The notes under the pieces are model-generated. The model searched no databases and was not told the origin of the DNA. It was given only the letters and a program-made list of their open reading frames with translations. The translations under genes were made by a program, and so were the position numbers. Positions 1,215 to 44,210 of a stretch of DNA of 64,000 bases are shown piece by piece (the stretch's first letter is position 1; each line of letters opens with the position of its first letter). Origin of the DNA: Syncephalis fuscata (lineage: Eukaryota; Zoopagomycota; Zoopagomycetes; Zoopagales; Piptocephalidaceae); assembly GCA_025786725.1 (NCBI GenBank), contig JAHLTZ010000011.1, positions 496,001-560,000 of the forward strand, read 5' to 3'.

Positions 1215-2227
1215 ATGAAGCTCTATAGTATTACCGTCTGTACCATCGCCATGGCGCTTGTGGCCAATATGGTCGTAGTGAATGCTAAGCCAACTCTATC
1301 CCCTAATAGTACGTTGTAGTTACAATAATTTGTTATTTATCTAATTAAATACTGTTTATATTGCTAAACCATGCTATTAGCTCGTAAGTAGCCTTATATA
1401 TAATCAGATATATACTGAATATATACTATGCGACATTTATGTTCAATAACTTGTATTAATAGCTGGTAAGTTGTATTATATATTAATCAATAGTCCGTTA
1501 ATTAAATATCGTGCTTTGCGTGTGCTCAATACCTTGTATTAATAGAATGTAAGTAGTGTTGTGAATCGATTTGTAATAAACTAAACGTATGTTATGTACT
1601 ATGTACCTGATGGCTTTTATTAATAGTTTGTAAGTGGTATTACATATTGATTAGCCATTTACTAAATATATGCCATCCATCATATATGTTCAACAATTTG
1701 TATTAATAGGGGGTAAGTGTTATTGTATATTAACCAATTATACACTAATTATATGCTATGTATTGTGCGTGTTTAATAATTTGTATTAATAGGTCGTAAG
1801 TAACATTGTGGATAATTAACAATATATTAAATATATGCCATTTATTGTGTGTGTATCAAATGAATTGCATTAATAGGAGGTAAGTGACATTTAATATTAG
1901 CAAAATGTATATACTAAACATATGTCCTTCATGGCCTATGTTAATAACCTATATTAACAGTTCGTAAGTAACACGTGCATTAATTAACCTTAAACTAAAC
2001 ATAATTTGTTAAACATGTGCTTGATAACTTGGTATTAATAGAACGTAGGTAACATTGTATATGATTACTTACAAGCTAAACATATGTCATGCATTGTGTG
2101 TGTTTAATAACTTGTATGAATAGGCTGTAAGTAGAATTGTACAATGTTGAATTACACATTGATTACATGATACATATTGTATATATTTATTAACATCTAA
2201 TAACCAGGGGCTCGTCGTGAAGATTAA
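1215..2227 (+). CDS. Small secreted peptide gene built from ten consecutive single-codon (3-nt) exons
   Basis: Exon 1 (1215-1308) encodes a clean signal peptide: Met-Lys, a hydrophobic core to about residue 22 and a likely Asn-Ala/Lys cleavage site at residues 23-25. It ends in phase 1 at a GTACGT donor. Ten 3-base exons follow at 1381, 1463, 1546, 1627, 1710, 1793, 1877, 1961, 2042 and 2124: ctc, ctg, aat, ttt, ggg, gtc, gag, ttc, aac, gct. Each is bounded by an AG acceptor (usually attaatag) and a GTAAGT or GTAGGT donor. The last exon (2208-2227) supplies the final codons and TAA. All eleven introns (72-81 bases) are phase 1. Reading across the junctions gives T-P-E-F-W-G-R-V-Q-R-W, then A-R-R-E-D and stop, for 47 residues in total and a ~23-residue mature, Arg- and Trp-containing peptide. 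There are no in-frame stops. The exon triplets are 50% G+C inside strongly AT-rich introns. I recognise no family and assign no function. Use of every micro-exon is inference until cDNA is seen. Confidence 0.72.
1384..2207 (+). repeat. Tandem array of related ~80-nt introns separated by 3-nt exons
   Basis: Ten successive units of about 82 bases begin with gtaagt (one gtaggt). Most share internal blocks (gtattgtatatta, actaaatatatgcca, gtgtgtgtttaataa) and a tattaatag acceptor. The first intron (1309-1380) and the last are the least similar. Between units only three bases vary completely: all ten triplets differ while both flanking splice signals are kept. This is what one expects if an intron-plus-codon unit was tandemly duplicated and selection maintained splicing. 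Confidence 0.75.
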
Positions 2228-2640: not shown

Positions 2641-4296
2641 CTATGCAAAGGCTTGTCGCACCACCTGAACAGTCAGATGGTGAACACAACCACCGAGTGA
2701 TCGATGAGCCGACGCAAGAATACCCTGAGGATTTGCATTTGTATCGGCAATGACCATTAGCGTGCCAACTACTCGGCCATAGGCATCGGTCCAAAAGTGC
2801 TCTTCCAAATAGCCAAGTACACCCGGTTGTGATGTCAGCTAATAATTTAATATAACATATCATATATTATAGATTAGCTAGTTATTCTAACCCAACACTA
2901 TATTCCGTTTATCCTACCTCATTCAAAGCTGAATCCACACCTTCAACGTGTGTGGCTGACTGCATTAATAGTTTGCTAATTGCAAAAAAGATGGATTGCA
3001 CAGAGTAGACCATAACAATAGCCACCGACATACATGCCAGCTGGTCTAATAAGGCAGGATATGCACTATGACACGTTCATTAAACAACAGTTACTAACTA
3101 TGCTAATCAACTTACCTAATCGCTACCATAAATCGACTAAACAATACGATGGCACAACAAAATAGATTGGCTTTAGTAAATGAGCTTTTCAATAGGCCGC
3201 CCAATAATGTGTCTTCACCACCAAATCGGCTTCCTGGACCTTGTGGTCTGCCGTTCACTATAATTGATATTAATAACAATAATAGCCTATTAATGCGCCA
3301 TAGACTTACATCGATCAAGCTGAGCATGATGACGGAATACGAGTGATGAAACAGCAGTCACTAGAACAGCACAGATCAATACTAGAAAAGACATAAAGAA
3401 ATCTCTATTATAAAATACATTAATCAACTGTATAAACCTATTCCGTATCACTTACGCATGATTGTGTTCACTATGATGGGTCAGAATAACGTGTTCCATG
3501 CCCTCTTTCGTTACATAAATGCTCATAAACAGCATGTAAATAACATTTGTAAACGAAAATAATATTTCAATTCGCCGTAATCTAAACAATTGATCCACTC
3601 AGTTTAATACAGTCATCTGTTCATTTTATCTTAAATACTTACCCAAATGGATGTTCCAATGTCGGTGTGGTATAATAACTTGAACTACGAATAGTACGAG
3701 AAACCAGTAGATTAAATAGGCCAAAAAGGTCAAAAAACAAGAAATATGCATAAGCTGTCAATGCTAAGTAGTATGTAGATCATACAGTATTGTGCATTTA
3801 TAGACATATATCAGTCAAATTGCTCCCTATTGATTTGCGGATACTTACCAAGACTTTCTGCATGATGGCCATGGAACCATACACCAATGGTTGTGAATAA
3901 CTGAAGTGTTGTCCATAGAAAAAGTACTTGGTGCTCCTTGTAGGCTAGCTGCATAAATTCCAGTTTTGAGGGTGCCCGAATACAAGTAGCCTTCGCGCTT
4001 CGCTTAGACGGATGAGCCATTTTGGTAACAGATCCATGTTCATGGTGATGGTGGTCATGTCCATGACTATGCCCATGACTATGCCCATGACTATGATGGT
4101 CATGGCTATGCTCGTGCTTGTGCGTATTATGCTTATGATCATGGTCATGATGAATATGATTGTGTGGTTGATAGTTGGCCTGGTAAGAAGGAGTGTTACC
4201 GGCTAACAAGTGATTGTCATTTGTAGTGCCAGCAGTAAACGTCTCTTCGACAACGCATACAAACGTGTCTTGTAGAGGTACAGGTGCTGGTCCCAT
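2641..4296 (-). CDS. ZnT6/Zrg17-like cation diffusion facilitator subunit (zinc transport, early secretory pathway)
   Basis: Seven exons (4296-3849, 3763-3643, 3581-3456, 3404-3310, 3257-3116, 3065-2918, 2838-2641) join in frame to 425 residues. The body matches the ZnT6 (SLC30A6)/yeast Zrg17 branch of cation efflux proteins: a TM segment reading S-L-A-L-T-A-Y-A-Y...F-D-L-F-G, further TM helices, and a cytosolic C-terminal domain with E-E-H-F-W and L-T-V-Q-V-V. In the second TM the canonical HxxxD zinc site has Tyr in place of His, as in ZnT6. That branch is thought to act as the non-transporting partner of a ZnT5/Msc2-type protein in ER/Golgi membranes. Residues ~50-90 form an extreme His-rich stretch (mostly H with D, G, S, K, E) ahead of the first TM, longer than I expect for ZnT6 and likely zinc-buffering. 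The first ATG at 4296 follows no in-frame alternative. The frame is intact. Confidence 0.85.
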
Positions 4297-42704: not shown

Positions 42705-44210
42705 CTAGACAGCTGCAGTTGCTGCTTTGATGGCAAGCTTACGCATGGAGCTGATAACCATGCGATTGCATTCGTAAAAGCTATGATATGTATAGTTTAA
42801 GCTGTGTTTTTTACACAACTCAATAACAAATGGCTGAATACTACGTAGACGGTGTCGTGGCAATTGCGGGAAAAGGTGGTGAAGCGCTTGAAATTGCAGA
42901 CCGCCGTGGAACCAATCGAGCCACCATGGACAATCAACGTCCATTGTGGTGCGTAGCTGACGAGCGGCAAAACACTCGTCTTCTGGCCCTTCATCGGCCG
43001 GCATACCAAAATGCGACAAAGTGATTTGTACATGTAGTATACTTGTGCCGACAAAAGACACTAGTACGTGTAACAAACGAGTAGTGGTATCTGGCAGCAG
43101 AGAAAGGAAATAGGAATACCATACCCAGTAGCAACATTGTAGGGCAATCTCTATGTTGCGACGGTAACCTTTGGGCTCAAAGGCTAAATATAGCCAGCCT
43201 TGTACAAAAAGATTAAATCGTCCAAATGCCAAAATGACATAGTAGAGATAGTGTTGAACCTGGGCAAAAAGACGCCACACACGATTCCAACGTAGGACCT
43301 TATTGTGATAAGAAGAGTAAACTGAGCCAAAAAAGCTTTCGCTGAGTGCGAAGAATGGCACAAGTTGAATATCGGGATCGTGTTCTGGATGGTTAGTAAT
43401 AATGTGGTGTACATTATGCGACTTTTTCCACCATCCAATACTGAGGCCTCCCATGCCGCAGGCTAGGAATGCACCCAAAAGATAGTCAATGTTGCGGCGG
43501 TGCGTAATGCCATTATGGCCAGCATCGTGCACGACAAAGGAAGCTTGGTGCCAAAACATGGCCAAGACAATGGCACTCGCTAGCCATGCATATTCGAATG
43601 GCCTGGCCACACCAAGATAGATGGCCGTGCCGAAAAACAATACCTGGCGAGCAAACTCCCAAGCATAGGCGGAATAGTGCGTTGTAAAGTAGCCTTCGTT
43701 GTGTAGACGGTCATTAAGTAGTCGAAAGTCTTTTGAAATGGCTTCGTAATCTGGTGATACTGGCATTTTAGTATTGCGATTTTCGTCTTTGCTTTTCGAT
43801 CGAGCAGCACTTTTGCCCTTCTTCTTTTTTAACGTGGTAGGACGAGCACGAACCGTTGTTGTATCGCTACACGATACACTTTGGTCTTGACTGGTGGGTT
43901 TCAAAAAAGTGCCAACGCAGAAGCGAGGCACCATTCGTTGCAGTACATCTTCTGGATGCATTACACGCATAACATCAGTGGCATCACGACCAATGAGTTG
44001 CTGAACGGCCAATTCGCCTCCAGGGTGACTTGGCAGCCAGCGGGTCATATCGTAAACACCGCCATTGTAAATAAACACAACGCGGCCATCTTGAACCGCT
44101 TCATTAATCTGCGTTTGCGTCCATACACGCTGACGAAGTTTTACAACACGCTTTGTACATGGTGTCTCTGTTACTGCTTCTACTCCAGCTTCAATATATT
44201 GTGGTGGCAT
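42705..44210 (-). CDS. Cytochrome b5-fusion front-end desaturase, probably delta-8 sphingolipid desaturase
   Basis: Intact single-exon gene of 501 residues. An N-terminal cytochrome b5 domain carries the haem motif H-P-G-G (residues 62-65). A Lys/Ser-rich linker (~125-150) follows. The membrane desaturase domain has three histidine boxes: H-D-A-G-H (228-232), H-N-V-H-H (265-269) and Q-A-L-H-H (441-445). The Gln at the third box and the fused b5 domain define the front-end desaturases. H-H-I-I-T-N-H-P-E-H-D-P-D-I-Q after box 2 resembles fungal delta-8 sphingolipid desaturases, which act on the long-chain base of glucosylceramides in the ER; a delta-6 fatty acid desaturase is the alternative. 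It is notable as intronless among intron-rich neighbours, like the fungalysin gene. Confidence 0.85.
   Translation of the reverse strand: MPPQYIEAGVEAVTETPCTKRVVKLRQRVWTQTQINEAVQDGRVVFIYNGGVYDMTRWLPSHPGGELAVQQLIGRDATDVMRVMHPEDVLQRMVPRFCVGTFLKPTSQDQSVSCSDTTTVRARPTTLKKKKGKSAARSKSKDENRNTKMPVSPDYEAISKDFRLLNDRLHNEGYFTTHYSAYAWEFARQVLFFGTAIYLGVARPFEYAWLASAIVLAMFWHQASFVVHDAGHNGITHRRNIDYLLGAFLACGMGGLSIGWWKKSHNVHHIITNHPEHDPDIQLVPFFALSESFFGSVYSSYHNKVLRWNRVWRLFAQVQHYLYYVILAFGRFNLFVQGWLYLAFEPKGYRRNIEIALQCCYWVWYSYFLSLLPDTTTRLLHVLVSFVGTSILHVQITLSHFGMPADEGPEDECFAARQLRTTMDVDCPWWLDWFHGGLQFQALHHLFPQLPRHRLRSIQPFVIELCKKHSLNYTYHSFYECNRMVISSMRKLAIKAATAAV

Follow-up and report, generated by a model that had tools for sequence, protein, structure and literature searches.

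The window, that is, the whole 64,000-nucleotide stretch of DNA analysed here, comes from Syncephalis fuscata, and near its beginning lies a gene for which the original prediction had claimed an unusual structure: ten consecutive exons of three bases in a fungus, all in phase 1, placed behind a signal-peptide exon and closed by TAA. The host is indeed a fungus, all ten AG-NNN-GTAAGT-type segments are present in the sequence where they had been put, and the gene model, in phase 1 throughout and ending with TAA, was reproduced as it had been given (window 1215-2227; the micro-exons are listed from the sequence and the gene model):

1215..1308, + strand, exon 1: putative signal peptide and start of the propeptide; 31 codons plus one base, ending in phase 1
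1309..1380, + strand, intron 1: by analogy with paralogs, a sequence class apart from the repeated introns
1381..1383, + strand, micro-exon CTC
1463..1465, + strand, micro-exon CTG
1546..1548, + strand, micro-exon AAT
1627..1629, + strand, micro-exon TTT
1710..1712, + strand, micro-exon GGG
1793..1795, + strand, micro-exon GTC
1877..1879, + strand, micro-exon GAG
1961..1963, + strand, micro-exon TTC
2042..2044, + strand, micro-exon AAC, with donor GTAGGT
2124..2126, + strand, micro-exon GCT
2208..2227, + strand, terminal exon GG GCT CGT CGT GAA GAT TAA, with TAA at 2225-2227

The acceptor of the terminal exon was placed after the original model and not by the parser described below. Exon 1 (94 nt) is signal-peptide-like as judged by eye, and its 31 amino acids gave 133 genome matches at E<=1, so that the proposed signal-peptide exon proved to belong to a large signal-peptide-like family. 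In seven paralogs, the window gene excluded, first introns resemble one another across genes at 0.84 and the repeat introns at 0.59-0.64. Spliced in silico, the window gene has the predicted product MKLYSITVCTIAMALVANMVVVNAKPTLSPNTPEFWGRVQRWARRED. Each junction codon is composed of one base of one exon and two bases of the next, about 80 bases apart. Stops appeared in 65% of the shuffles of its exon order, and the open frame, with a chance of about 0.35, is therefore weak evidence. The gene is also a divergent family member without the Cys framework and without RR, and its fate may differ from that of other members; by itself it would prove little. Tandem-repeat detection partly recognised its array (1660-1891).

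Elsewhere in the window, a crude filter for ordinary introns gave only four candidates, of 52-63 nt. Positions 4057-4095 hold a tandem 12-base repeat, by eye a His-rich coding stretch of a putative metal transporter gene, and 42705-44210 on the minus strand hold an uninterrupted delta-6 fatty acid desaturase with 75% identity to a Syncephalis plumigaleata protein.

Genome-wide searches covered 28.95 Mb in 299 contigs. The strict motif TATTAATAG-NNN-GTAAGT was matched 1519 times (719 + 800), and its reversed-pattern control had no match. With the same motif ends, TATTAATAG and GTAAGT, spacings of 4-30 bases were found 46 times versus 5 in the control, and spacings of 0-2 bases 8 times versus 0; the regular 3-base spacing is not due to chance. 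Since the strict motif recovers 165 of 507 modelled 3-base exons (33%), the genome may hold perhaps some 4,700 such exons, copies on duplicated contigs counted in. The original prediction had named copies of the repeat in non-genic positions as one finding that would speak against it. Among the first 100 listed strict units of the 1519 matches, to which this mapping is confined, 92 lie downstream of a same-strand family first exon, within 7 kb of it, and one more (L036) has a family first exon in its own locus; the remaining seven comprise one viewed on the wrong strand (L035), two too near the locus start to tell (L002) and four unexamined.

The scale of the family, its arrays of up to about 40 units and its intronless paralogs all go beyond what had been predicted. 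An intronless member used as query gave 313 candidates. Of the 150 that were scored, 77 have an open frame of 39-43 aa, the length expected where exon 1 reads into the intron. Another nine have 44-69 aa and 64 have at least 70 aa, though these classes are rough: the interrupted window gene has 76 aa and the interrupted gene of L047 has 74 aa, so the 64 overcount the uninterrupted members. Judging from the sequence, S. fuscata seems to have dozens of genes whose products are small secreted peptides and in which almost every mature residue has a three-base exon to itself; the spliceosome would thus need to assemble each peptide codon by codon. Many family hits come in equal pairs on two contigs, and L060 (C2:518700-523300) and L061 (C2:536550-541100) are near-identical, oppositely oriented copies that share a contig; such copies represent recent duplications or uncollapsed haplotypes. 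A like signal peptide also precedes very different uninterrupted mature parts in L076, L073, L087, L083 and L072, including proline-rich tandem repeats, Asn-rich and other types.

Exon lengths were determined by a dynamic-programming parser that weighted all exon lengths from 0 to 45 equally and scored donors and acceptors with matrices trained on the strict motif; the first parse took the window gene and 23 loci as input. Without a length preference, 438 of 476 internal exons were 3 nt and 11 were 6 nt, with up to about 40 exons per gene, and a refined parse of 26 stretches gave 471 of 500 at 3 nt and 14 at 6 nt. The length of 3 nt is not built into the parser, because its matrices omit the exon, though they were trained on 3-base spacings; the genome-wide spacing counts are independent of the matrices. 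When the window gene and 21 loci, together 22 non-redundant stretches, were scanned with a plain pattern, 255 of 259 free-length spacings were exactly 3, and the reverse strand had zero spacings of any length. In 409 modelled units the three exon positions have base entropies of 1.95, 1.83 and 1.99 bits, and the four bases before and six after the exon have 0-0.49 bits.

The final gene models prefer 3 nt by design and were excluded as evidence on exon length. Their 545 exons include 14 of 6 nt, one of 9 nt and ten of 10-15 nt, and they describe the longer chains: 34 exons in L058 (33 of 3 nt and one of 6 nt), 21 of 21 at 3 nt in L062, 29 of 30 in L063 with one of 6 nt, and 41 of 42 in L064, where a single 2-nt exon breaks the frame. 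The modelled introns have GT-AG ends (few GC donors were allowed), strong donors and a branch-like motif abutting the acceptor; 401 of 570 are 76-80 nt long, the commonest lengths being 78, 80 and 79 nt. Introns of 439-502 nt interrupt the regular array in L049 (~950-1450), L069 and L057, and those of L049 and L069 contain a stretch resembling gtgagcccccgctgc, which looks like a dispersed repeat.

Almost all internal exons share one phase, with their first base at codon position 2, and the stop and Cys codons agree with this phase in tests on 18 non-duplicate genes (299 codons), the phase being set by exon 1 and each gene cut at the first exon other than 3, 6 or 9 nt. Dropped from this set were the near-duplicates L053, L057, L060 and L065, three loci with fewer than nine internal exons (L067, L090, L091), L059, which gave no model, L052, removed after the first parse because the start finder missed its first exon, and L054 as intronless. 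In phase 1 there is one stop, the last codon of L066, versus a mean of 14.1 when the exon order was shuffled within genes (minimum 5 in 5000), and there are 42 Cys codons versus 20.5 (maximum 34). The same bases read in phase 2 give 33 stops and 18 Cys, and in phase 0, 2 stops and 2 Cys. An earlier parse, whose gene set was mostly but not entirely the same, gave 3 stops versus 15.9, with 0 of 2000 shuffles that low, and in phase 2 it gave 28 stops versus 28.0.

A framework C-x2/3-C-x3-C, a pattern picked after viewing the peptides, stands at the start of 7 of the 18 peptides, compared with a shuffle mean of 0.06 and a maximum of 2. A profile HMM of six intronless paralogs ranked the actual peptide among the best 2% of its shuffles in 7 of the 18 genes; this profile was too small for a peptide test and the Cys spacing was used instead. 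Several genes have an early phase-1 TAA in their terminal exon. Eight of the 18 (L047, L048, L050, L055, L056, L061, L064 and L089) run into an irregular exon, meaning one of 0 nt, of a length that is not a multiple of three, or longer than 9 nt; some of these are parser errors, and others may reflect decay, assembly error or exon skipping. From oriented position 2184, the terminal open frame of L047 (YRCFQKISIGIVIGLLVWY...) extends further, at a place where other members stop at once, and letters like those of this frame are found in the 3′ region of other members.

Several family members are uninterrupted and allow a direct comparison. The intronless L054 reads KPALVRR and then ADLESPECEECLNICFSQLNSSLHCYSSCRPKCAP, and L074 reads KPDLVRR and then GAQECEDCVHICASAKDRYGNRNSADWCRSERGNCAIPCR; spliced in silico, L063 and L068 continue after RR with GSYEECKACMVVCKDRGELSKEQCQGKCYNQCKADNPQP and GLEECWACMDECTTIYTTAECRKNNYCAKQCRK, respectively. 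An alignment of five spliced and six intronless proteins, hand-chosen for their Cys, has four invariant Cys columns in the mature part. Between 8 interrupted and 7 intronless genes the promoter and upstream region has an identity of 0.78, compared with 0.57 in a shuffled control; for the stop and the sequence following it, the value is 0.81 (7 interrupted and 6 intronless genes). In several micro-exon genes the terminal exon opens with two bases plus TAA, near the stop of the intronless copies. Because framework, promoter, signal peptide and 3′ region are common to both classes, the intronless copies act as stand-ins for cDNA, much as an intronless relative did in the case made for a one-base exon in Fusarium (PMC12940212). 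They probably arose by recombination with reverse-transcribed spliced mRNA, though the change may have run the other way. On the best tree of 19 interrupted and 12 intronless members the two states change 9 times, versus 9.8 for shuffled labels; this tree is poorly resolved, its well supported branches force only 2 changes, and the classes do not form two clean groups.

A profile search with the Cys-type peptides, which reaches only proteins with common short words, found 14 proteins at E<=1 among 165 candidates, all from S. fuscata. None of these 14 annotated family proteins is recognisable as a product spliced from micro-exons. Five lie whole in one uninterrupted frame (P0123, P0125, P0133, P0126 and P0127), and P0126 and P0127 are Cys-rich, close to the profile and intronless. 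By eye, P0121, P0122, P0124, P0128 and P0132 look truncated or seem to continue into intron sequence behind the signal peptide. Searches for a known domain or fold gave leads and not evidence: Pfam Cys_box in one of 11 members (E 0.0011, below its cut-off), Pfam TIL in one of 11 (E 0.018), and, among solved structures, cytochrome c as best match (E 0.23) followed by vicilin-type chains and Ole e 6 at E>=0.37. An AlphaFold model of the intronless P0126 from a two-row alignment had a mean pLDDT of 62 and was not taken on to a fold search.

Taken together, the best explanation, to which we give a probability of roughly 0.87 on the sequence evidence, is a spliceosomal gene family in S. fuscata whose mature peptides are coded mostly one codon per exon. 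The 3-nt spacing, the avoidance of stops, the enrichment of Cys, the framework and the intronless paralogs are the reasons why the one-codon exons are very probably spliced and translated. Under this explanation, exon 1 would supply a conserved signal-peptide-like stretch, in many members with a KPALVRR-like end, and stop one base into a codon. Next would come a tandem array, with some 9 to 44 internal exons where the models are better; its repeating unit would be an intron of about 78 nt (GTAAGT ... TTAATAG) plus a 3-base exon. A terminal exon would then supply the stop in the same phase. In every intron a strong 5′ splice site would be paired with a branch-like motif, TTAAT, that runs directly into the 3′ AG; these features and the lengths of 76-80 nt point to splicing by intron definition. 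The introns are probably removed one after another, because splice sites 3 nt apart could hardly be occupied together.

The predicted products are small secreted peptides, many of them Cys-rich with CxxCxxxC...CxxxC, probably freed by a kexin-type protease after RR. Syncephalis species are obligate parasites of other fungi. The genus is also called mycoparasitic in the available text of a review (PMC10386755), which mentions neither introns nor exons. The peptides resemble secreted effectors that diversify and are often rich in Cys, and they are probably used against host fungi. A unit gained, lost or changed would mean one residue gained, lost or changed, with the frame kept.

How the arrays were formed is a separate question, and comparison of the nine Cys-type genes in 36 pairs offers some clues. 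Exon bases are 0.22-0.53 identical, intron interiors 0.59-0.77, and the splice-site stretches are best conserved (donor 0.77-0.88, acceptor 0.83-0.94); exons are less alike than intron interiors in all 36 pairs. The pair L057/L058 gives 59/78 identical exon bases versus 1498/1718 in intron interiors (Fisher p 0.006). Diversifying selection on codons, homogenisation of introns or slips of alignment register would each account for this. Across genes, introns that occupy matching positions counted from the 5′ end are 0.752 alike and displaced ones 0.703, and no positional signal was seen when counting from the 3′ end (0.738 versus 0.746). These values fit arrays whose 5′ part predates the duplication of the genes and whose middle and 3′ portions were expanded or homogenised afterwards, but they do not amount to proof of tandem copying.

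Alternatively, the introns could be introner-like transposable elements inserted codon by codon and not tandem duplicates. Such elements are known in fungi, as far as the available text of two papers goes (PMC4457414, PMC9860276), and random middle introns of different genes (0.777) are as alike as adjacent introns within one gene (0.765). We consider this origin rather unlikely: the first-listed units lie almost all behind family first exons (92/100), constraint follows one phase, longer multi-codon exons are as rare as counted above in the final models, and within a gene similarity is a little higher between neighbouring introns than between distant ones (0.765 versus 0.724).

A different view of the spliceosomal family is that the one-codon exons are mainly optional cassettes, any subset of which may be skipped in frame to yield many peptides per locus. 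It would suit the refined parse, where 485 of the 500 internal exons are 3 or 6 nt, and the accessible part of one paper says that schistosome micro-exon genes use their symmetrical exons in this way (PMC4350168). We regard it as quite unlikely given that the Cys spacing is kept as if most exons were included. Any inclusion pattern would nevertheless stay in frame, because each exon is one codon in one phase; that each locus is a combinatorial peptide generator, with evolution editing its peptide one residue at a time as single units are gained, lost or mutated at a splice site, is thus a doubtful but conceivable extension of one-codon splicing.

It is very unlikely that the arrays are decaying relics of intronless peptide genes invaded by introns, the copies now being dead. 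Several genes do have irregular exons or damaged splice sites, and uninterrupted siblings are common (the 64 scored hits of at least 70 aa, an overcount). However, between any two of the nine Cys-type genes 47-78% of the exon bases differ, yet frames remain open in the intact stretches read, the Cys start framework is kept in 7 of 18 genes, and it is the splice-site stretches that are most conserved in the 36 pairs. Finally, excision of the whole array as a single intron, with the 3-base segments as tandem-repeat by-products, would be simplest for a gene finder and agrees with the partial tandem-repeat call at 1660-1891 and with several annotated family models that by eye look truncated or read into an intron, yet it is highly implausible, since both the avoidance of stops and the enrichment of Cys are tied to the order and phase of the exons, the Cys frameworks agree with those of intronless paralogs, and the Cys-type genes would be left with almost no mature peptide.

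The one-codon family works like the micro-exon genes of schistosomes and the bicycle genes of aphids. Schistosome micro-exon genes are described, in the available part of PMC10526429, as having exons of 3-81 bp in its abstract or 6-81 bp, the majority 15 bp, in its introduction, with 10-20 per gene, and introns of 0.1 to 5 kb. As predicted for the S. fuscata family, they encode fast-evolving secreted parasite proteins with many tiny symmetrical exons and are hard to annotate; however, the internal exons of S. fuscata are nearly all exactly 3 bp, with up to about 40 per gene, and its introns are near 78 nt. Aphid bicycle genes, according to the excerpts available of PMC9168663, have about 17 exons on average with internal exons starting at codon position 2, and the megacycle gene has more than 100 micro-exons for about 2000 aa, so that its exons average tens of bases. 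They likewise encode secreted putative effectors and have many small exons in nearly all one phase, but belong to a different kingdom, and those excerpts do not describe their exons as one codon long. Among fungi, a one-nucleotide exon in Fusarium CYP621A was inferred via an intronless relative and confirmed by sequence reads, as the accessible text states (PMC12940212). The present case resembles it in minute exon size and in the use made of intronless relatives, but the Fusarium exon stands singly in a P450 gene and is not part of an array. The arrays also recall fungal introner-like elements in having many similar spliceosomal introns within one genome; introners insert into many genes, according to the text available (PMC9860276), whereas the introns of S. 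fuscata lie in tandem in one gene family among the loci examined.

Within the open-access literature, subscription journals and preprints being outside the scope, we found no report of such genes or of micro-exons in Syncephalis. As described in the available parts of PMC10526429, PMC4350168 and PMC9168663, neither schistosome micro-exon genes nor bicycle genes have uniformly one-codon exons. The architecture would be categorically new, or an extreme variant if any micro-exon gene counts as one kind.

If confirmed, the long runs of one-codon exons would set a new limit for exon structure and permit direct tests of the spliceosome on sites three bases apart, where exon definition can hardly act. 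They would also permit direct tests of how intron-rich arrays form and how they become, or arise from, intronless genes. The family suggests that gene finders overlook a whole class of secreted peptides, and in these peptides the intron neighbouring each codon would provide a yardstick for measuring selection.
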